Assembly: GCF_002844195.1 (NCBI RefSeq)
Contig: NZ_PEND01000008.1
Span: forward strand, 62,001 to 126,000
Direction of reading: 5' to 3'
Source of the DNA: Halegenticoccus soli
GTDB lineage: Archaea > Halobacteriota > Halobacteria > Halobacteriales > Haloferacaceae
Length of the DNA stretch: 64,000 bases
Shown here: in pieces, positions 39,150-54,547 of the stretch
Layout: each line of letters opens with the position of its first letter
How positions within the stretch are numbered: position 1 is the first letter of the stretch
Made by a program: the position numbers and the translations under genes
Notes under the pieces: model-generated
The model's input: only the letters and a program-made list of their open reading frames with translations
Told to the model about the DNA's origin: nothing
Databases searched by the model: none

Positions 39150-39346
39150 ACGGCGTCCAACTGGTCCAGGTTTCCTTCAGAACTCTAGGCCATCCTATGA
39201 GATAATACGGGATAAATAGCGTGTTCCCTATGCTGGGATCTTCTTGATAGGATCGGGTTGTTGAAGACAGAGACAGACTCTATCTTGGTGCATCCCAGAA
39301 GTAGACGGAGGACAACGTTTTCGTTCATCAGCCAGGAATAGTGTGT

Positions 39347-39553
39347 ATGGCCACGAGAGTAGAGACCCCTGACGCCGACGAAGTTTGTGCGTATTGCAGT
39401 TCCCGCGTTTTCGACCACGATCCAATCTGTGTCCGTGACTGTACCGCTGACTGTGGTTCGCCGACATATTTCTGTAACTACGCCTGTCTGTCGGCGTATA
39501 TCGACGAGAACGAACTGAGCTACGGTAACGCTTGTAAGTGGTCGCCCGAGTAG
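39347..39553 (+). CDS. small cysteine-rich (zinc-binding) protein
   Basis: Protein of 68 residues from ATG 39347. Eight cysteines: VCAYCSSRVF, ICVRDCTADCGS, YFCNYACLSAYI. The last part looks like a treble-clef/TRASH-type finger (YFCNYACLSAY), a fold also used in metal-sensing TRASH domains. Role unknown; a metal-related role would fit its place upstream of the MerB-like cluster, but this is inference. Confidence 0.55.
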   Translation: MATRVETPDADEVCAYCSSRVFDHDPICVRDCTADCGSPTYFCNYACLSAYIDENELSYGNACKWSPE

Positions 39554-39593: not shown

Positions 39594-39608
39594 CCCCAAT
39601 ACACTGGG
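39594..39608 (+). promoter_or_regulatory. operator-like palindrome 1 (before the HTH_10 gene)
   Basis: CCCCA, six bases (ATACAC), TGGG; 38 bases before the ATG at 39647. Same motif and spacing as at six other starts in this element. A TATA-like TTTAG lies at 39576-39580, further away than at the other sites. Confidence 0.6.
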
Positions 39609-39646
39609 CACAATGATTTACTCGCAAGCCTCCCTACCAGCCAAGT

Positions 39647-40288
39647 ATGCGTGAGGCTGTTTTGTCCGTGAGCGACGATGAACTCGCCGCGTTGGGAATA
39701 CAGGATCTCGTTGCCCTCTGCCGGTCGGCCGGCCTCAGAGACTTCGAAGAACTTGAGTGCCAACCGACGGGAGCAGTCATCCGCATCGAAGTCGAATCCA
39801 GGCTCGATGAGGACCGACTCCAAGCAATGGACTACGTGAACTGGTGGGAACGGGTGACATCGTCGGACGATTCACAGCAGTACATCCTCTCATTCACTGC
39901 ACCGAATCTTTCGGAGACTATCTCGGATCATGCTGACGACTTAGTCGGCACCTGTAACCCAGAGATGACGGATCAAGGAGCAACCCTCTCTATTGTCGGT
40001 CCCCACGATGCAATTAGCGGGACACTTGACGAATACCGGTCATCGGGGATGTCCCCTCGTCTTCGGAGAATCACCTCGTACAATGGGACAGAGCGACCGC
40101 TGGACAGACTCACTGATAGACAGCAGGAGGTGATTCAAACCGCCTACAATATGGGATTTTACGAAGTCCCCCGAGAGACGTCAACAGAAGACGTCGCTGC
40201 TACACTGGACATCGATCCGTCAACGGTCGCAGAGCATCTACAACGTGCGGAACGGAACTTGTTATCCCGATTCCTCGATACCGAATAG
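39647..40288 (+). CDS. HTH_10 (bacterio-opsin-activator-like) transcriptional regulator
   Basis: Protein of 213 residues. The C-terminal part is the HTH_10 domain of Bat-like haloarchaeal regulators: LTDRQQEVIQTAYNMGFYEV, PRETSTEDVAATLDI, STVAEHLQRAERNLL. The N-terminal 140 residues form a beta-rich sensor-like region with WWERVTSSDDSQQYILSF. It is the only clear transcription factor inside the element and has the element's palindrome in its own promoter, so it may control the seven-promoter set and itself. That link is inference. Confidence 0.8.
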   Translation: MREAVLSVSDDELAALGIQDLVALCRSAGLRDFEELECQPTGAVIRIEVESRLDEDRLQAMDYVNWWERVTSSDDSQQYILSFTAPNLSETISDHADDLVGTCNPEMTDQGATLSIVGPHDAISGTLDEYRSSGMSPRLRRITSYNGTERPLDRLTDRQQEVIQTAYNMGFYEVPRETSTEDVAATLDIDPSTVAEHLQRAERNLLSRFLDTE

Positions 40289-40867
40289 AGATCAAGTACG
40301 TTCCACCTCCCATCATAAACCGAACGACGAAGAACACAGCAAATCAGCTCAAGCCTGCTGATTCTCTGCCGAGCCGGGTGATTCGTCTCATTAATCCAGT
40401 GTAGAGCAGCCATCTCCAAACTGAGGATAACCATTATTGCATTGCAGTCTATCGCCAGCAGACTGTCGCAGTGATCACTGTAGTGGGCCGAAGCTGAATA
40501 AGACGAAATGAATGTCAGTGGCCCCGGCGGTGGTCATATCACGGATGACACAGCCAACCATCGTGGCTAGCGCGAACGTCAACTATTGGCAGAGGGTAGA
40601 TGCTGCCGATACTGCCGTGAAAACCACCGTTGAACGGGAAGCACGCGTACTTAGGACGGTCTACGTTACGGGCCCATCGGTCGAGTTCAAGGCTTCTGGA
40701 TCACCCCAAAACCGTTCGTCCCGATGGAGGACCCACTGGGGATCAGAACTGGGCTCCTTCAGGCAAGTCATAGCCAGCTAGTGTCACTGTTTGTTATGAT
40801 TTCAGAAGGGTTCAACAGAGTCCGTTTCGACTCAGCGTTATGGGATACTCGGCGTCACCATAAACCT
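40289..40867 (+). other. intergenic stretch after the HTH_10 gene
   Basis: No gene can be supported in the 579 bases before the micro-ORF promoter. Frames here are short and lack recognisable protein patterns; one 89-codon frame at 40512-40781 is mostly non-biased sequence. From about 40816 the first copy of the 225-base repeat begins. Confidence 0.4.
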
Positions 40868-41040
40868 CCCCAGATAACTGGGAGATGGACCTTTGGTGGT
40901 ACCGGAGGTATGACCGAACAGAATGGATCCCGATACTGAGGGAGGGGAGCAACGATTCCTCCATTATCGGTCTTGGTGGAGTAAGGTATGCGGTTGGCCG
41001 GTGCTAAAAATAGACGGCCTACCGAAAGTTCGGCACAGAG
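40816..41040 (+). repeat. imperfect direct repeat, copy 1
   Basis: About 225 bases recur at 42317-42543 with roughly four-fifths of bases the same by eye. Each copy holds a promoter, the palindrome and a micro-ORF. They lie on either side of the PQQ-type lipoprotein gene. Confidence 0.75.
40868..40882 (+). promoter_or_regulatory. operator-like palindrome 2 (before micro-ORF A)
   Basis: CCCCA, GATAAC, TGGG, directly after a TATA-like ATAAAC at 40860-40865 and 40 bases before the ATG at 40923. Sits between TATA and the expected start of transcription, so a bound protein would probably repress. Confidence 0.6.
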
Positions 41041-41066
41041 CAAGCAGGTATCGGTTGCTTCTGTGA
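40923..41066 (+). CDS. micro-ORF A, 47 residues
   Basis: Short frame with a promoter and palindrome like those of the larger genes nearby. It begins MDPDTEGGEQRFLHYRSWWS and includes KVCGWPVLKIDGLPKVRHR. Its paralogue at 42425 shares PDTEG-EQR, WSKVC, WPV and IDGLPKVR, although the rest differs. I know no family. The conserved amino acids and ATG spacing argue for a translated product; the small size leaves room for chance or for a regulatory RNA. Confidence 0.45.
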   Translation: MDPDTEGGEQRFLHYRSWWSKVCGWPVLKIDGLPKVRHRASRYRLLL

Positions 41067-41126
41067 ACGGACTACTGAGTAGGTTCACAAAACCCATACA
41101 TAATCGTCCACGACTATTTATCTAGA

Positions 41127-42314
41127 ATGCCCTCCGACACGTCATCCCCGCCGACACGCCGTGCGTTCCTCGCGGCCTGCGGAGCAATCACGCTTTCTGG
41201 GTGTACAGGTGTCTTCGCACAGAGCAGATCGTCCCCACCGGTTGAGTGTTCTCCGACGGAGTCATCCTGGCCGATGTACGGATACGACGCCGCTCACAGG
41301 AGCTATGTACCGTCTCGGGGGCTCCCGCCGGCAACTGCTGATGCGCATCGATTCTCCCAGACCGGCACGAGCCGAAACGGAGGTGGGAGTACCGAGGCCC
41401 CGCCCGCTATCGGCGATGGGGTCGCCTACATCGCGGGTGACGTCCGGATTGAGGCCCGTGACATCGAGACGGAAGAGCGCCTCTGGGAGATCGATCCCGA
41501 AGATAGCGTCGCTACCAGTCCCGTCCTCGCCTGCGGGGTTGTCTACGTAACGACACTCAATGAAACGCTCGCACTCGATCCAACTGACGGATCCGTGGTA
41601 TGGCGAGCGGAGGGTGGCGCACCCGGTGACGTGTCTGCCTCGCCTGTTGCCGTTGACGATCGACTCTACGTTGCGACGGGAGGCGTGGCCGCGCTCGATG
41701 CTGAAACCGGGAGCGAACGCTGGCACGCGAGTACTGAGCACGTTGTCCAGGGTGTCGCCGTGGATGATCGCGTCTACGTCGGTGCGGCAAGCAACGGGAG
41801 CGGCGAAGTCGCCGCCTTCACGATTGATGGCGACCGCTGGTGGCGAACCACCGAACCCGGACAGGTGTACACCACGCCTGTCGTCACCGAGAACACAGTG
41901 TATGCGGTTTCGAAGACCGGGACGGTGACGGCGCTCGCCGCGACTGATGGGCACGTTCGGTGGCAGGAGAGCGTCGAACCTGGCGTCTTCCAGCCGCCGG
42001 CACTCGCCAATGACCGAATCGTGGTGGGAGCAGGCAACGGCACCCAGACGATAGCGCTCGACGCGACGACCGGTGAGCGCCTGTGGACGTACGAGACAGG
42101 CGTCAGTAAGAGCGCGCCGGTCGTAGTCGGTGACCGGGTGCTCGCCACGGGGGCGAACACTGGAATTTACCTGCTGGACGCCGCGACCGGTGATCGCGTC
42201 CGGCACTGGGCCACCGAGAACGTGGGATCGCAGCCAGTAGTCGCTTACGAGCGGCTGTTTTACCGGGCGTGGAACGTTTCAGACGTGTTCGTAATCAAGG
42301 ACACCCCGGCCTAG
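41127..42314 (+). CDS. PQQ-like beta-propeller lipoprotein
   Basis: Exported protein of 395 residues. Signal: PTRRAFLAACGAITLSGC, a Tat motif followed by a lipobox Cys. The body shows repeated propeller blades: GVVYVTTLNETLALDPTDGS, RLYVATGGVAALDAETGSER, YAVSKTGTVTALAATDGHVR, IVVGAGNGTQTIALDATTGE. No catalytic motif of PQQ dehydrogenases is seen, so it is likely a binding or assembly scaffold outside the cell. It follows micro-ORF A by 60 bases. A TATA-like ATACATAAT lies at about 41096-41104. Confidence 0.85.
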   Translation: MPSDTSSPPTRRAFLAACGAITLSGCTGVFAQSRSSPPVECSPTESSWPMYGYDAAHRSYVPSRGLPPATADAHRFSQTGTSRNGGGSTEAPPAIGDGVAYIAGDVRIEARDIETEERLWEIDPEDSVATSPVLACGVVYVTTLNETLALDPTDGSVVWRAEGGAPGDVSASPVAVDDRLYVATGGVAALDAETGSERWHASTEHVVQGVAVDDRVYVGAASNGSGEVAAFTIDGDRWWRTTEPGQVYTTPVVTENTVYAVSKTGTVTALAATDGHVRWQESVEPGVFQPPALANDRIVVGAGNGTQTIALDATTGERLWTYETGVSKSAPVVVGDRVLATGANTGIYLLDAATGDRVRHWATENVGSQPVVAYERLFYRAWNVSDVFVIKDTPA

Positions 42315-42316
42315 AG

Positions 42317-42543
42317 TCACAGTCTGTTTTGACTCAACGTTGTGAGATCCGCGGCGTCACCATAAATCCTCTCAGGTGACTGGGAGATAGACCTTCGGTA
42401 GTACCGGAGATGTGACCGAACGTAATGGAGCCCGATACTGAGGGAGCGGAGCAGCGAGTTCTCCGGCATCAGTTTTTGTGGAGTAAGGTGTGCTATTGGC
42501 CGGTGGTAGAAATAGACGGCCTACCGAAAGTTCGGTACAAAGA
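42317..42543 (+). repeat. imperfect direct repeat, copy 2
   Basis: Second copy of the 225-base repeat at 40816. It keeps ACCATAAA, the palindrome region, GATACTGAGGGAG, TGGAGTAAGGT and AGACGGCCTACCGAAAG in the same order. Confidence 0.75.
42371..42384 (+). promoter_or_regulatory. operator-like palindrome 3 (before micro-ORF B, degenerate)
   Basis: CTCA, six bases (GGTGAC), TGGG, after a TATA-like ATAAAT at 42362-42367. The left half differs at one base from CCCA. Forty bases separate it from the ATG at 42425. Confidence 0.5.
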
Positions 42544-42553
42544 AACTACGTAA
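42425..42553 (+). CDS. micro-ORF B, 42 residues
   Basis: Paralogue of micro-ORF A: MEPDTEGAEQRVLRHQFLWS then KVCYWPVVEIDGLPKVRYKE. It ends 23 bases before the lipoprotein gene and probably shares its transcript. Function unknown. Confidence 0.45.
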   Translation: MEPDTEGAEQRVLRHQFLWSKVCYWPVVEIDGLPKVRYKETT

Positions 42554-42576
42554 CCAGTTTAGCAATAGACAACAAT

Positions 42577-43032
42577 ATGAATCGGCGACGGTTCCTCGTT
42601 ATCGCTGGAGGCGCATCCCTCTCTGCCCTCTCCGGTTGTCTCAGCAATCCGGGGGTGAATGGTGGATTGTTGGAAGTACTGTCCGCCGAGGTGCCACCTC
42701 AGGCTAAGGTCACCGACGCGACCGACGAACGGATCGGCGACATCGAGCCAATACAAACTGGGCTTCAGCAGGCCCAGCAATACGGCACGGCGAACGTCGA
42801 CGTGACCGACGACGAGTATGAGATGGTAGCGCAGACGCTGTCGGTCCTCCCATGGTATTCCCGACTCGAACGTGACTCTGACTACATTTCGGGAATCTAC
42901 ATCTAATATGAAGACGCCGCGTACGTAGTCGTCCTCACACCGTACTGTACCGACTCGTGGCTTTGGGACGCGCACAGTGAACGCGGTGACTACGGATGGG
43001 GAGGGTGTATCGACCTGCGAGAACAGAAGTAA
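42577..43032 (+). pseudogene. small lipoprotein gene with an in-frame stop
   Basis: From ATG 42577 the protein starts with a Tat/lipobox signal (MNRRRFLVIAGG, LSALSGCLSNPG) and runs 109 residues to a TAA at 42904-42906. The same frame continues beyond the stop with convincing sequence, YEDAAYVVVLTPYCTDSWLW and GDYGWGGCIDLREQK, to a second stop at 43030-43032. A single base change (for example GAA to TAA) explains this, giving an original protein of 151 residues. The truncated form could still be exported. Not assigned to a family. Confidence 0.6.
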
Positions 43033-43199
43033 TGGCAGAATCATAGCCCTCATTCGAGGGTAATCAGAAAGTGCCACAACGATTCTCCCCGACCTACGGG
43101 GAATACTCAGTCCACAGTCCGAGCGGATCGAGGGGAGAAGTAGGATGACAACCCGTGATACAGTCTCTGCCGACAACTAAACCAATTCAAGTTAAACCT

Positions 43200-43215
43200 C
43201 CCCAGTAAGGTGGGG
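43200..43215 (+). promoter_or_regulatory. operator-like palindrome 4 (before MerB-like 1)
   Basis: CCCCA, GTAAGG, TGGGG, directly after a TATA-like TTAAAC at 43192-43197 and about 40 bases before the ATG at 43255. Confidence 0.65.
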
Positions 43216-43254
43216 GATAGACAATTCGAAAGGAATACTGTATCCCGATGTGCG

Positions 43255-43881
43255 ATGGATTCCGAATCAGAGCACTCTGCGAGACGAACGAAACTCCCGA
43301 CTGACTTCGCTAAGCATGCAGCTGCCGCGACTGGTATCGACGCTCTCCCAACGACGTTGGAGGAGTGGTGGTCGGTAGTTCTCGACCAGTACCAAGCAAA
43401 CGACCTCACGATAGGACTTGATGATTTGTACAGTGAGACTCCGACTTGCCACGAAGTCCACGTGAACGGCTGCGTCCGGTACACGCACTGTGCTCTGGAC
43501 GCTCTGGAGGCGGCAGTGATAGTCGAACAGGATGAGGTGACTGTCCGGTCAGTTGATCCAGTGTCGGGGACTCCTGTGACGTTCGCGGTGGACGACGACG
43601 GCGTAACGGTATCGCCCGAGGAGGTGCTGGTCTGTTTCGGAGCGAACCTGGATCCAGACGCTATCGAGGCTGCGGGGTCACTCGCTGCGTGGTCCGTGCA
43701 AGACGACAAGACCGAAATCAAGAGTGGAGTCTGCCAGTACACCAATGCCTTCGAGAGCGAGGTGACCTACGAACAGTGGGCAACGGAAACAGATAGCGTA
43801 ACTGCACCGGTACCGCCGGCCAATGTTATGCCGTTACTACGTAAGCTGCCGTACGACAGTGACGACTCGGCTAGTAGTTAG
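43255..43881 (+). CDS. alkylmercury lyase (MerB) family protein 1
   Basis: Protein of 208 residues. It keeps the MerB catalytic pattern: CALD (Cys79, Asp82) corresponds to Cys96/Asp99 of E. coli R831 MerB, and VCQYTNAFESEVTYEQWA (Cys160) aligns without gaps to the Cys159 region, including Phe, Ser and Trp-Ala. MerB splits carbon-mercury bonds to Hg(II) and a hydrocarbon. The N-terminal part is not the usual winged domain in any obvious form. A GTG at 43210 is in frame but lies inside the palindrome, so the ATG at 43255 is chosen. Organomercury as substrate is unproven. Confidence 0.7.
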   Translation: MDSESEHSARRTKLPTDFAKHAAAATGIDALPTTLEEWWSVVLDQYQANDLTIGLDDLYSETPTCHEVHVNGCVRYTHCALDALEAAVIVEQDEVTVRSVDPVSGTPVTFAVDDDGVTVSPEEVLVCFGANLDPDAIEAAGSLAAWSVQDDKTEIKSGVCQYTNAFESEVTYEQWATETDSVTAPVPPANVMPLLRKLPYDSDDSASS

Positions 43882-43919
43882 CTGTCGAAGCAGGGCCCAG
43901 TGAAGGAGAGTCTACCTCT

Positions 43920-44540
43920 TCACTTTCCCACGTGGGTACGAGCTGCTTGCTTTGAAAGGGAGAACGCCTTCTCGACGGAAAGCTCCACCAGGGCTGCCTC
44001 CGAAATTTCTGCCGCCCATCGTTCGAACGACGCGGAGTCCGGGAAGGCGTTGGTCACCGCACAAGTGGTTGGAATCGGTGCATCTGGAGCATTGAGCGTG
44101 TCCTTGACCGAATCAAAGTCAGGGTTCGTCGATTCCTTGATACCGAGTCCGAACGAAATGACGGCACTCGTCGGGACCACGGTGACGCCGTCTTCGGTGA
44201 CGCGGAAGCGAATTGTCACACCGGCTTCGGGAGATTCCGAGTAGATTTCGACTGTGTCGTCTTCGTGGAGCAACGCCACGATCAGCGCGTCCATCACGCA
44301 GGGGACGTACTTGACTGTGCCATCGATGTGTACCGCGTGTCGCGTCGGCTCGGGCTGATACATGTCTTCGGGCGTGATTGTTACTCCGGCCTCGTTCAGC
44401 CGATCCGTAACGGCACTGTGTCCCGCTTCGAGGGATTCAGGTCGCTCGTCGAGGCTGCCAGCGCGACGGAAGGCTTCGGCCAGGTCTGACGGCAGGTCAG
44501 TTCGGTCAGCGAATCTGGTTTCCCTGTTTGAGTTCACCAT
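43920..44540 (-). CDS. alkylmercury lyase (MerB) family protein 2
   Basis: Protein of 206 residues, divergent from the first paralogue. Catalytic pattern CVMD (Cys81, Asp84) and TTCAVTNAFPDSASFERWA (Cys160) keep the Cys-Asp-Cys triad and the Trp-Ala spacing. The block YQPEPTRHAVHIDGTVKYVP parallels YSETPTCHEVHVNGCVRYTH of paralogue 1. It is 111 bases downstream of the MFS gene on the same strand but has its own TATA-palindrome promoter. It converges with MerB-like 1 (38 bases apart). Confidence 0.7.
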   Translation of the reverse strand: MVNSNRETRFADRTDLPSDLAEAFRRAGSLDERPESLEAGHSAVTDRLNEAGVTITPEDMYQPEPTRHAVHIDGTVKYVPCVMDALIVALLHEDDTVEIYSESPEAGVTIRFRVTEDGVTVVPTSAVISFGLGIKESTNPDFDSVKDTLNAPDAPIPTTCAVTNAFPDSASFERWAAEISEAALVELSVEKAFSLSKQAARTHVGK

Positions 44541-44577
44541 ATGAGACCGAGACGAACTGGATTAGGAGAACTGTTAT

Positions 44578-44592
44578 CCCCATCGTGTGGGG
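44578..44592 (-). promoter_or_regulatory. operator-like palindrome 5 (before MerB-like 2)
   Basis: CCCCA, five bases (TCGTG on the plus strand), TGGGG. On the minus strand it follows an A-rich AGAAAAG element and lies 38 bases before the ATG at 44540. Confidence 0.65.
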
Positions 44593-44651
44593 ATGGCTTT
44601 TCTACTGTCGTACGTTTTGTATCGACAAGCGTGTTCGAAATCGGAGTGGAG

Positions 44652-45944
44652 TCAGTCTTCGAGCACTGTCCGAGTCGGTGATTTTGGGGTTGGGACCGGT
44701 GGTTCGTGTGTGCCGAAGTCGGGATGCGTCTCTTCCATCCATGCGTAAACGATTGTACCGGAAGTGAACATCAGGATTGATGTGAGATAGAAGGCGGCCT
44801 CGGTGTGGACGATCTCCATCGTGAGCCCAATCAGGATTGCGCCGACGGCGTAGCCGGCGTCACGCCACATCCGGTAAACGCCCATACCTGCCGACCGCCA
44901 TGTCGGATGCGCCGCATCGCTAGGAACGGTCATCAGGTTCGGGTACAGTAATGCCATGCCCAGCCCTGAAGTGGCTGCTACAATCGTCCACGAGAAGTAT
45001 CCTTCGACGAAAACCATTCCGAGCACACCGCCTCCCGCGAGGAACATCCCCACGAGTACTGGAGGACGACGACCGATCTGATCAGCAAGGCCGCCGGTCA
45101 CAATCTGGAGGAAGTACATCGCAGTATGCACGCCGACGACGATACCGACTGCTGTGATGTCGAGTCCCTGGCTCGTGAGGTACAACGGTACTGCGATCCA
45201 GAATAACGTGTCCACGAAGTTCTCGACGTGGCCGGCCTGCGCTGCGGCGAACAGCGTCCTGTCGCCATAGGTCGCTCGCTTCAGAACCTCAGTGAAGGGA
45301 AGATCGGCATCGTAGTGATCACCATCGCTTTCGGCTTGGGCGTACTGGACGGTCTCCTTGATGAGGAAGATCGAGATGAGGAACGCCAGCAGGACGACCG
45401 CTGCAAGGAAGTAGAACGGTTCGGGCCGGTAACTCTGAGTCTGGCCAGCGATGAGACCCGTAACCCATGCGCCAACGGCGACGCCGGTGTAGCCGAATGC
45501 TTCGTCGATGCCGACTGCGAGCCCACGCTGGTCGGGGCCTGCGAGGTCGATCTTGGCGTTGATCGCCATACTCCAGGTCAAGGCTTGGTTGATTCCCAGC
45601 AGAATGTTCCCGAGAGTGATCCATCCCCAACTGGGAGCGAAGATGAGGATAATCGGAAGCGGTAGTGCGGTTGCCCACCCGAGGATGAGCACTGGCTTGC
45701 GGCCGTACTCCTCGCCCCACTTGCCGGCGTAGAGGTTGAGCAGCGACTTGACGAATCCGAACGAGACGACGAACGACCCGATAACGAGGAACGACTCGAC
45801 GCCGAGCACTTCTTCTCCCAGAACGGGGACGACGGTGCGTTCGGACCCGATAGTCAACCCGGTGGCGAACACTAAGAGGACGTGCAGTGAGAACTGCCCG
45901 AGGTGTTCGCGGATCCCTCGTTTGAGGTCCGTGGGTTCGCTCAT
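44652..45944 (-). CDS. MFS transporter of the MerB-like cluster
   Basis: Membrane carrier of 430 residues with twelve predicted helices. Motif A appears as GKWGEEYGRKPVLILG in the first half and GLADQIGRRPPVLVG in the second. Other features: NILLGINQALTWSMAINAK and GLAVGIDEAFGYTGVAVGAW. It is three bases downstream of the rhodanese-MBL gene, so both are on one transcript controlled by palindrome 6. It probably exports a product or imports a substrate linked to the MerB-like proteins. The direction and substrate are unknown. Confidence 0.85.
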   Translation of the reverse strand: MSEPTDLKRGIREHLGQFSLHVLLVFATGLTIGSERTVVPVLGEEVLGVESFLVIGSFVVSFGFVKSLLNLYAGKWGEEYGRKPVLILGWATALPLPIILIFAPSWGWITLGNILLGINQALTWSMAINAKIDLAGPDQRGLAVGIDEAFGYTGVAVGAWVTGLIAGQTQSYRPEPFYFLAAVVLLAFLISIFLIKETVQYAQAESDGDHYDADLPFTEVLKRATYGDRTLFAAAQAGHVENFVDTLFWIAVPLYLTSQGLDITAVGIVVGVHTAMYFLQIVTGGLADQIGRRPPVLVGMFLAGGGVLGMVFVEGYFSWTIVAATSGLGMALLYPNLMTVPSDAAHPTWRSAGMGVYRMWRDAGYAVGAILIGLTMEIVHTEAAFYLTSILMFTSGTIVYAWMEETHPDFGTHEPPVPTPKSPTRTVLED

Positions 45945-45947
45945 AGG

Positions 45948-47060
45948 TCACTCAGCAGCGCAGTTATTCGGTCCTAATTCCAGGTCAGCCAATTCGTCGG
46001 TGGGAACGGATTCCTGCCCCACGTTTACTCGCTTGACGCGCTCGAAGTTCGGCGGGTGGTCTGGGAGATCTGACGCGAGTTTCTGGACGAATTCCTCGCG
46101 GTCACGTCCCAGATCGGCGTTCCGCTCTCTGAGTTCACCGAGCGTCGCGGTAACTGGCGGTTCTGGTGAGCCAGGGTCGTGTGCTGGCAGCACAACGGTG
46201 TCGTCCGGCCGGTCGAGCAACCGCTGGAGGCTCTCGTAGAGCGTCTCCGCGTTCTGTTCGACGTCGGTGTCTTCGATTCCGGATTCGACGCCGAGTTCGA
46301 CCCGTCCCACGCTCTCGTGGAAGAGTGTATCACCCGTGAGCAGCGCTGCACCGTCGATATCGAACGAGACGCTTCCTTCGCTGTGACCAGGGGTGTGGAT
46401 GACCTCGATGTCGAGCCGACCGACAGAGATGGTCTGTCCATCCGCAACAGGTATTGCATCTATAGCGAGCGCATCCTTCGAATGAAGGTGGTAGGGAATG
46501 CCGTGACAGTCGGCGAGTTCCGCCGCCCCAGACACGTGGTCAGCGTGGGCATGTGTATCGAAGACGCCGACGAGTTCGGCGTCGTACTCGTCGATGATTT
46601 CCTCATACTCGGAAAGATACTGTGACGGGTCGAAGACAGCAGCTTCCCCATCCGAGACGAGGACGTGGGAGAGACATCCTTTCCCGGGACGGGTGACTTG
46701 CACGAGCGTCCCCTGGAATCCTGTCTTGATCGGGGCACTCCGGTGGACACGGCTCCATCCGTTCATCCCGTCAACGAGCGTTTTCGCATCGTAGCCCAAC
46801 GTCTGGAGACGCTCCGTCGCTTTTCGAGAGATGACGCCAGCCGCGCAGACTGTGACTATCTCGTTCTCGTCCGGCACGTCCGACAGAGCACGGTCAGCGT
46901 TCGCTGGGTTCTCCTTCAGTTCATCGTAGACGGGAACATTTTCGCTTCCGGGAATGTGCCAGTCTTCGAACTCGTCCTCGTTCCGAATATCGAGAACGAA
47001 GAGTATCTCGTCGGCAGCCTGGAGTCGCGTACTTAATTTATCGGGCGTGATTTCGGACAT
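45948..47060 (-). CDS. rhodanese / metallo-beta-lactamase fusion (persulfide dioxygenase-like)
   Basis: Protein of 370 residues. Residues 1-105 are a rhodanese domain: DKLSTRLQAADEILFVLDIR, DWHIPGSENVP and the active-site loop VCAAGVISRK (Cys72). From 115 onward is an MBL domain with THAHADHVSGA (His170, His172, Asp174, His175), HTPGHSEGSVSFD, LLTGDTLF and a final His in LPAHDPG. This build resembles ETHE1-type persulfide dioxygenases combined with a sulfurtransferase. It heads an operon with the MFS gene and shares a divergent promoter region with MerB-like 3, so sulfur or thiol chemistry probably belongs to the system. Confidence 0.85.
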   Translation of the reverse strand: MSEITPDKLSTRLQAADEILFVLDIRNEDEFEDWHIPGSENVPVYDELKENPANADRALSDVPDENEIVTVCAAGVISRKATERLQTLGYDAKTLVDGMNGWSRVHRSAPIKTGFQGTLVQVTRPGKGCLSHVLVSDGEAAVFDPSQYLSEYEEIIDEYDAELVGVFDTHAHADHVSGAAELADCHGIPYHLHSKDALAIDAIPVADGQTISVGRLDIEVIHTPGHSEGSVSFDIDGAALLTGDTLFHESVGRVELGVESGIEDTDVEQNAETLYESLQRLLDRPDDTVVLPAHDPGSPEPPVTATLGELRERNADLGRDREEFVQKLASDLPDHPPNFERVKRVNVGQESVPTDELADLELGPNNCAAE

Positions 47061-47098
47061 ACCATCCGTAACTTGTCGTATTCGTCCGAATTCGTGAT

Positions 47099-47114
47099 CC
47101 CCACCACACTGGGG
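47099..47114 (-). promoter_or_regulatory. operator-like palindrome 6 (before the rhodanese-MBL/MFS operon)
   Basis: CCCCA, CCACAC, TGGGG. On the minus strand a TATAA (47119-47123) precedes it by four bases, and the ATG at 47060 is 39 bases beyond it. Confidence 0.65.
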
Positions 47115-47182
47115 CCCCTTATACTGGCGGTCTCTACTGTCCCGACGGAGTGTTTTGGCCGCTCATGACCATGGATAAACGC

Positions 47183-47197
47183 TCCCAACTAGTGGGG
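47183..47197 (+). promoter_or_regulatory. operator-like palindrome 7 (before MerB-like 3)
   Basis: TCCCA, ACTAG, TGGGG, after a TATA-like ATAAAC (47175-47180) and 38 bases before the ATG at 47235. Fits the others in everything but one base of the left half. Confidence 0.6.
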
Positions 47198-47234
47198 GGG
47201 CACATCAATTGACGGCCGGGTGCTGACTCCAGCC

Positions 47235-47882
47235 ATGACAGACGAGCCATGTCCATGTTGTGGTAACGTTGATGAACTGGCTTCCGAAATCGAAACGTCT
47301 GCGGGTCAGTGGATTAGAGAAGAATCCGTTCTCGACACGGAACTTCCCCGGGGCATGCGAGTGGCTCTCGGCCGGTTCCTCGGATCGGATTCAATTGAAA
47401 CGTTGGGCGAGTGGGCCTGTGAAGTACGTCAACACGTCGGTGGATCAATTAGTGTCGAGGAACTGTGTCTATCCAGCGAACAGACGGAACACTGGGGGAT
47501 AGTAGACGGTGACCAATACTATTTCGCGTGCTTCTACGACGCGGTGATACTAGCAGCCCTATCGGATCAACCGGTCGATATTCACACTGTAAGCCCAGCT
47601 GGAGACACTATCGAGGCCCACGCAATCGGGAGCAGTGAACTTACAGTTGCACCAGAAGAAGCTATTTTCTCGTTCGGTATCGAGAAAACCGTAGAACCAT
47701 CATCAGACGATAGCCCAACCCTGGAACAAGGATACGCCTCGATCTGTCCATACGTCAAAGCATTTCCTAATTTCGCAGCGTATGAACGATGGGCGAAGCG
47801 TGTCCCGGCAACCACCGTCGCTATGCCGCTCGCTGGAGCGACAGAACTCGCGGCTGAACTGGTGAGAAGAGCACCCGAGTAA
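47235..47882 (+). CDS. alkylmercury lyase (MerB) family protein 3
   Basis: Protein of 215 residues, the most divergent paralogue. Catalytic pattern CFYD (Cys99, Asp102) and ICPYVKAFPNFAAYERWA (Cys171) keeps the triad and spacing. It adds an N-terminal CPCCG motif that could bind a metal (MTDEPCPCCG). The start at 47235 is chosen over GTG 47220 because it gives the 38-base spacing from the palindrome. It diverges from the rhodanese-MBL operon. The order of MerB-like genes, MFS and rhodanese-MBL is compact enough to be one functional set. Confidence 0.7.
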   Translation: MTDEPCPCCGNVDELASEIETSAGQWIREESVLDTELPRGMRVALGRFLGSDSIETLGEWACEVRQHVGGSISVEELCLSSEQTEHWGIVDGDQYYFACFYDAVILAALSDQPVDIHTVSPAGDTIEAHAIGSSELTVAPEEAIFSFGIEKTVEPSSDDSPTLEQGYASICPYVKAFPNFAAYERWAKRVPATTVAMPLAGATELAAELVRRAPE

Positions 47883-47974
47883 CCGTCAAGATAAATCCAC
47901 CCAGCAGATTCGGCACAGTCTGCTTGCTCTTTCGACAGTACCGTTGATTTGATGACGACTATACCAATCAAGCG

Positions 47975-53611: not shown

Positions 53612-54547
53612 TCACGCCAGCTTTTCCAGGTTCTCCAGGACGATTTCGGGGTACGCGTCGTGATCGATTTCGAGCGCGACCCGGGCGTTGGGCTCGCGGC
53701 CGAGCACGCCGTGTTCGTCGTAGATCGTCGCGCCGTTCGACGGCCCGCCCGTCGTGTCGATCTCCACGTACGCCGCCTCGAACGTGAGCAGGCCGCCGAT
53801 GACGTCGGAGACCACGACCGCGTCGCTCGCCAGGCCGCCGTCGTGGCCGAACTTGCTCTTCACCTCGTCGACGCTGAACGCCAGGATCTTCGCGATCGTC
53901 GAGAGCGGAGCCGGCTCGTCCAGCAGCCGCTCTATCTCGTCCGTTCCGACGTAGACGTGTTCGGTCACGTCGAGCCCCACGATCTTGGGGTTCGCCTCCT
54001 GTACGACCCTGCTCGCGGCGGGGGCGTCGACGTAGAAGTTGAACGACGCCTGCGGCGTGACGTTCCCGGTCGTCTTCATCGCCCCGCCCATGAGGAAGAT
54101 GTTGCCGACCAGATCGGGTAACTCGGGCTCCAGGGCGATCGCCAGGGCGAGGTTGGTCGACGGTCCCACCGCGGCGATGGTGAGGTCTTCGCCGTGTTCG
54201 CGCGCCTGCTCGACGATGAACTCGACCGCGTGCGCGTCGATCGGCTCTGCCGTCGGCTCGGGGAGCTCCGCCCGCACGTCCTCGGGGAGGCCGCCGGGGC
54301 CGTGGACGTGCTCCGCGGTTTCGAGGTCGTCGGAGAGCGGACGCGCGGCGCCCGCGGCCACGGGAACGTCGGCCCGATCGACGAGTTCCAGCAGCGAGAG
54401 CGCGTTGTGCGTCGCGTTCTCCAGCGTCGTGTTGCCCATCACGGTCGTGAGTCCGACCACGTCGACGTCCTCGTTCGCCAGCGCGACGAACGTGGCGATT
54501 GCGTCGTCGTTCCCCGGGTCGACGTCCAGTAGGAGCTTCGTAGACAT
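53612..54547 (-). CDS. nucleoside hydrolase 1
   Basis: Inosine/uridine-preferring nucleoside hydrolase family, 311 residues, cleaving the N-glycosidic bond of ribonucleosides. The Ca-binding Asp cluster is LLLDVDPGNDDAIAT at the start; other blocks are TTVMGNTTLENATHNALSLL, FIFLMGGAMKTTGNVTPQ-like NIFLMGGAMKTTG and ASFNFYVDAPAASRVV. It begins at ATG 54547. A paralogue lies at 58837-59781; between them is an ECF transporter, suggesting uptake then hydrolysis of nucleosides. Confidence 0.92.
   Translation of the reverse strand: MSTKLLLDVDPGNDDAIATFVALANEDVDVVGLTTVMGNTTLENATHNALSLLELVDRADVPVAAGAARPLSDDLETAEHVHGPGGLPEDVRAELPEPTAEPIDAHAVEFIVEQAREHGEDLTIAAVGPSTNLALAIALEPELPDLVGNIFLMGGAMKTTGNVTPQASFNFYVDAPAASRVVQEANPKIVGLDVTEHVYVGTDEIERLLDEPAPLSTIAKILAFSVDEVKSKFGHDGGLASDAVVVSDVIGGLLTFEAAYVEIDTTGGPSNGATIYDEHGVLGREPNARVALEIDHDAYPEIVLENLEKLA

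Follow-up and report, generated by a model that had tools for sequence, protein, structure and literature searches.

In the 64,000-nucleotide stretch of Halegenticoccus soli DNA analyzed here (the window), a palindrome with the core CCCA-N6-TGGG recurs within a 7-kb gene cluster, and it very probably acts as the on/off switch of an undescribed archaeal regulon centered on MerB-like enzymes of the organomercury-lyase family. Our preferred reading, which we regard as likely, is that the palindromes are operators of a conserved haloarchaeal regulon under the HTH_10 protein encoded at position 39647, and that this protein represses its targets. Judged from sequence comparisons, the regulon is conserved and the HTH_10 protein is the best candidate for its regulator.

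Palindromic sites and genes of the cluster

Palindromic sites were located between positions 39594 and 47913, among them all seven of the original prediction, with gaps to the ATG of about 37 to 40 nt. Site 1 (core 39595 to 39608, plus strand, CCCAATACACTGGG) lies 38 nt from the ATG of the HTH_10 gene, and its TATA element, gaTTTACT, is 3′ of the palindrome, a geometry suggestive of autoregulation. Site 2 (40861 to 40882, core 40869 to 40882, plus strand, TAAACCTCCCCAGATAACTGGG) and its duplicate, site 3 (42363 to 42384, core 42371 to 42384, plus strand, TAAATCCTCTCAGGTGACTGGG, one mismatch), both have an ATG gap of 40 nt. Site 4 (43193 to 43214, core 43201 to 43214, plus strand, TAAACCTCCCCAGTAAGGTGGG) is 40 nt from the ATG of MerB-like protein 1, and site 6 (47100 to 47121, core 47100 to 47113, minus strand, TAAGGGGCCCCAGTGTGGTGGG) is 39 nt from that of a rhodanese-metallo-beta-lactamase (MBL) fusion. 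Site 7 (47176 to 47197, core 47184 to 47197, plus strand, TAAACGCTCCCAACTAGTGGGG) precedes MerB-like protein 3 with a gap of 37 to 38 nt. Site 5 (44578 to 44592, minus strand, CCCCACACGATGGGG, gap about 37 to 38 nt) is weak; its composite score is not significant by itself (shuffle P of 0.075), and no TATA was seen there at the usual position. Both site 5 and site 7 can be parsed in two ways, with an N5 spacer or with N6 and one mismatch. An eighth site, missing from the earlier list (47892 to 47913, plus strand, TAAATCCACCCAGCAGATTCGG), stands 38 nt from an ATG at 47952 that opens only a 20-codon frame; downstream of it, in another frame, is a 203-amino-acid membrane open reading frame (ORF) that has no clear start.

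Sites 2 and 3 both sit in a 228-bp direct duplication (82% identity) and therefore count as one event. The two copies of this promoter-leader segment, at 40816 to 41043 and 42318 to 42545 (both plus strand), contain site 2 and site 3, respectively. Two micro-ORFs here had been counted among the controlled genes, which was not borne out: the two differ from each other at codon positions 1, 2, and 3 in numbers of 6, 7, and 5, a lack of codon-position bias on which the micro-ORFs were rejected as genes. No convincing homologue of either was found outside the H. soli genome among the relatives' loci examined and plasmids. They are probably leaders ahead of two lipoprotein genes, and because they lack a coding signal and the sites are duplicated, these downstream genes are the likelier targets: a PQQ-repeat lipoprotein (41127 to 42314, plus strand; PQQ_2, 2.5e-34; lipoprotein-type N terminus) as the probable gene of site 2, and a small lipoprotein (42577 to 42906, plus strand; identified from its translation, with no Pfam family) as that of site 3.

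The remaining genes encode MerB-like protein 1 (43255 to 43881, plus strand; Pfam MerB, 8.8e-20, in a longer frame from 43210; triad conserved), MerB-like protein 2 (43920 to 44540, minus strand; 2.2e-18), MerB-like protein 3 (47235 to 47882, plus strand; 4.2e-15), the persulfide-dioxygenase-like rhodanese-MBL fusion (45948 to 47060, minus strand; Lactamase_B, 9.3e-15; Rhodanese, 6.9e-14), and, as the second gene of the rhodanese-MBL operon, a major facilitator superfamily (MFS) transporter (44652 to 45944, minus strand; MFS_1, 1.2e-43). Residues C81, D84, and C160 of MerB2 correspond to C96, D99, and C159 of MerB and are invariant in 14 homologues. MerB1 and MerB3 are 26 to 29% identical to MerB2. 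A PDB sequence search with MerB2 alone gave no match; a search with the MerB profile found MerB structures. Sequence family and catalytic-residue equivalents liken these proteins to the bacterial alkylmercury lyase MerB (R831b; PDB 1s6l and 3f0p), but they score below the NCBIfam MerB equivalog cut-off (26 to 46 bits versus 193 to 200), and the equivalent of Cys117 appears to be missing from the alignment. Detoxification of organomercurials or other thiophiles by the cluster is plausible, and the intact catalytic residues hint at a mercury-type signal. No MerA is encoded in the cluster. A MerA that passes its family cut-off is encoded on a different contig (G000:C2:512494) and was rejected as a regulon member, as no composite site with up to two mismatches occurs near it.

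The HTH_10 protein and its own promoter

The candidate operator-binding protein (39647 to 40288, plus strand) is a one-component regulator of 213 amino acids, whose C-terminal residues 155 to 206 match HTH_10 (PF04967; 1.3e-19) with 70.2 bits against a cut-off of 23.1. An AF2 model (pLDDT 85) places alpha/beta sensor-like repeats ahead of the HTH, and in a fold search with the regulator nothing reached significance, Ta1207 (5m86, TMq 0.42) being the best of the meaningful matches. At least 20 HTH_10-type matches are present in the H. soli genome. Orthologues with 50 to 59% identity occur in many haloarchaea, several of them on large plasmids, and usually adjoin a MerB-like gene. Cys38 and Cys103 are common to the five closest aligned orthologues; Cys103 is missing in most of the 40% clade.

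Most close orthologues carry the element CCCARTATAYTGGGCACAAcgcTTTA in their own promoter, with the palindrome kept at 50 to 59% protein identity; it is absent in the close orthologues at loci L056, L060, L061, and L065 to L067. In the HTH_10 promoter, 8 bp separate the palindrome from the TATA that follows it, and the mRNA probably has almost no leader, which puts the palindrome at or above the BRE.

Two minor features were recorded at these loci. A small Cys-rich (zinc-finger-like) protein is encoded at 39341 to 39553, directly upstream of the HTH_10 gene, and among the relatives' loci examined similar proteins occur only near L156 and L074. At L042 (G087:C4:40153-40713), the HTH_10 orthologue is read with one in-frame stop codon.

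Specificity of the motif in the genome

Shuffled sequence predicts 0.03 exact CCCCAN5-6TGGGG palindromes for the window, which contains four; one of these, at 53975, does not belong to the site set. The expectation that the motif does not occur at random genome positions held for the palindrome combined with its TATA but not for the palindrome itself: bare exact CCCCAN4-7TGGGG is found at 8 places genome-wide and the pattern read backwards at 17, and the bare form was rejected as a marker. Pattern searches of the 4.6-Mb genome with the composite TAAA-N4-CCCA-N6-TGGG (TAAANNNNCCCANNNNNNTGGG), allowing up to one mismatch, returned 7 places (8 for the reversed control), and 6 of the 7 are inside the cluster (40861, 42363, 43193, 47100 on the minus strand, 47176, and 47892). 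Even with two mismatches, every match in the window falls within the cluster. The seventh place is upstream of an ABC-transporter gene adjoining an HTH_10 paralogue; the regulon is thus not as fully self-contained as had been proposed.

The paralogue (42%; L045:8715 and 9483, C3:300701-302114 of the H. soli genome) adjoins an ABC transporter whose promoter carries CCCAGAATAAGGGG after TAAA-N4, a site of the same type. A similar paralogue/ABC-transporter pair is present at L073.

Promoter geometry and the sign of regulation

The gap of 38 to 40 bases to the ATG, originally described as fixed, about holds in the cluster but ranges from about 27 to 51 nt in relatives; the invariant distance is that to the TATA. 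Among the 26 high-scoring promoters of MerB genes linked to an HTH_10 orthologue (see below), 17 have the palindrome exactly 4 nt after TAAA (counted by eye), and most of the others have near-variants of TAAA at the same offset. The site is downstream of the TATA at targets and upstream of it at the HTH_10 gene only, so its proposed position between TATA and start applies to the targets (TAAA-N4-CCCA) but not to the regulator's own gene. With a start about 25 bp after the TATA, transcription at targets is predicted to begin a few nucleotides past the palindrome. The predicted start falls on a conserved A (position 18, 87%) in a set for which many sites were picked for a TATA-like element, so that the TATA conservation partly reflects selection.

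The operator at targets lies between or over core promoter elements, as for archaeal operator-blocking repressors. Because protein bound there would block initiation, this geometry makes repression the most likely mode at targets. An HTH_10 dimer probably binds the palindrome; it would cover the stretch from TATA to start and shut off the MerB-like and rhodanese-MBL/MFS genes, along with the SAM methyltransferase and ABC-transporter genes that carry the operator in relatives. An inducer would release it, perhaps an organomercurial or some other organometal or thiophile. At its own promoter, the palindrome just upstream of the TATA, beside or over the BRE, would allow autoregulation of either sign.

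Activation at all genes is an unlikely alternative, although the related HTH_10 proteins NarO and DmsR are activators (PMC11218638) and the own-promoter palindrome occupies the usual place of an activator site: directly downstream of the TATA, with a rigid 4-nt spacing, an activator at the targets would clash with polymerase.

Conservation across Halobacteriales

Within a comparison set of 392 Halobacteriales genomes, an HTH_10 orthologue (E ≤ 1e-30) was found in 33 and MerB-like genes in 68. A strict-pattern scan of the set, blind to genes, gave 21 places versus 9 for the reversed control; 12 of them are directly upstream of MerB ORFs, 2 precede a SHOCT ORF beside HTH_10 homologues, and 1 is site 2 of H. 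soli. For every MerB domain match, the preceding 450 nt were scored, with a score of at least 19 taken as the element. Of 28 MerB genes no more than 8 kb away from an HTH_10 orthologue, 26 carried it (16 genera), compared with 3 of 11 whose genome has the orthologue at a more distant place and only 1 of 42 in genomes without one (Fisher, 9e-16, with genomes treated as independent and no correction for phylogeny). Mapped onto the MerB tree, the element requires three or more changes on well-supported branches, and independent contrasts are about three for and none against, which is not significant.

MerB genes neighboring HTH_10 have the promoter (T)TAAAC-n3-CCCA-N6-TGGGAG, and the element also precedes SAM methyltransferase, rhodanese-MBL, ABC ATPase, and SHOCT genes beside HTH_10. 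Since it stands before non-MerB genes as well, and MerB1 to MerB3 are distant from one another, plain descent with a single MerB lineage does not account for it. In four annotated loci from plasmids, each with a close HTH_10 orthologue, the HTH_10 gene adjoins merB and is the only regulator common to all four. Together, this linkage in relatives and the palindrome at the HTH_10 gene strongly support the proposal of a shared operator with the HTH_10 protein as candidate binder.

That another regulator binds the operator, HTH_10 being merely one of its targets, appears quite unlikely. Genome G149 (86% complete) has the element with no HTH_10 orthologue detected, and locus L099 has a site although no close orthologue is listed for its genome, which speaks for this reading; it is countered by the co-occurrence and linkage with HTH_10 in 16 genera, by the site at the HTH_10 gene itself, and by the lack of any other regulator common to the four annotated neighborhoods. 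The L099 site (G425:C45:10843-10866) is a clean composite 40 nt before a 129-amino-acid ORF that contains an ACC motif and matches no Pfam family.

An RNA hairpin in the 5′ leader, which a GC-rich inverted repeat 38 to 40 nt ahead of the ATG might suggest, is very improbable: the predicted RNA start at targets lies downstream of the palindrome, the spacing is tied to the TATA and not to the ATG, the 6 nt at the center differ among targets with no discernible pattern, and there is no Rfam match. Chance, or shared ancestry through duplication alone, is practically negligible, for although sites 2 and 3 arose in one duplication, the other promoters are unrelated beyond the element, which is specific both genome-wide and across genomes.

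Relation to known regulatory systems

To our knowledge, few HTH_10 proteins have a known operator, though they are numerous in haloarchaea. On the repressor reading, one HTH_10 subfamily would gain a precise candidate operator, a promoter layout predictive of repression, and a set of targets open to testing, and MerB-like enzymes, present in 68 of 392 genomes, would come under what may be a regulator of their own. No description of an HTH_10/MerB regulon was found in searches of the literature.

NarO of Haloferax volcanii and DmsR of Halobacterium are HTH_10/Bat-type activators without PAS or GAF domains (PMC11218638). By class and description, the 39647 protein resembles them as a one-component HTH_10 regulator that would control neighboring haloarchaeal genes; whereas they are described as activating anaerobic respiration genes, its proposed regulon has detoxification-like genes and a site between TATA and start that points to repression. 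MerR/mer control, including merRHAI of Sulfolobus, also sets a dedicated regulator beside mercury-resistance-family genes and involves repression without inducer (PMC3600143), as is predicted for the 39647 cluster. Here, however, the regulator is an unrelated HTH_10 protein, the operator is different, and MerB-like genes occur without MerA. MerB homologues have been reported in only 11 archaeal genomes, with no demonstrated archaeal demethylation (PMC8261052).

A broader reading, which we consider possible but would stop short of calling probable, is that the 39647 protein represents an undescribed family of HTH_10-class one-component repressors that use one operator in two geometries, sense organometals or thiol-reactive compounds, possibly via Cys38/Cys103, and control a widespread haloarchaeal MerB-centered detoxification regulon. 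Separately, at one relative's locus (L039:6739-7634), the MerB3 orthologue is split by a transposase-like insertion, and HTH_10 and the rhodanese-MBL/MFS pair remain.
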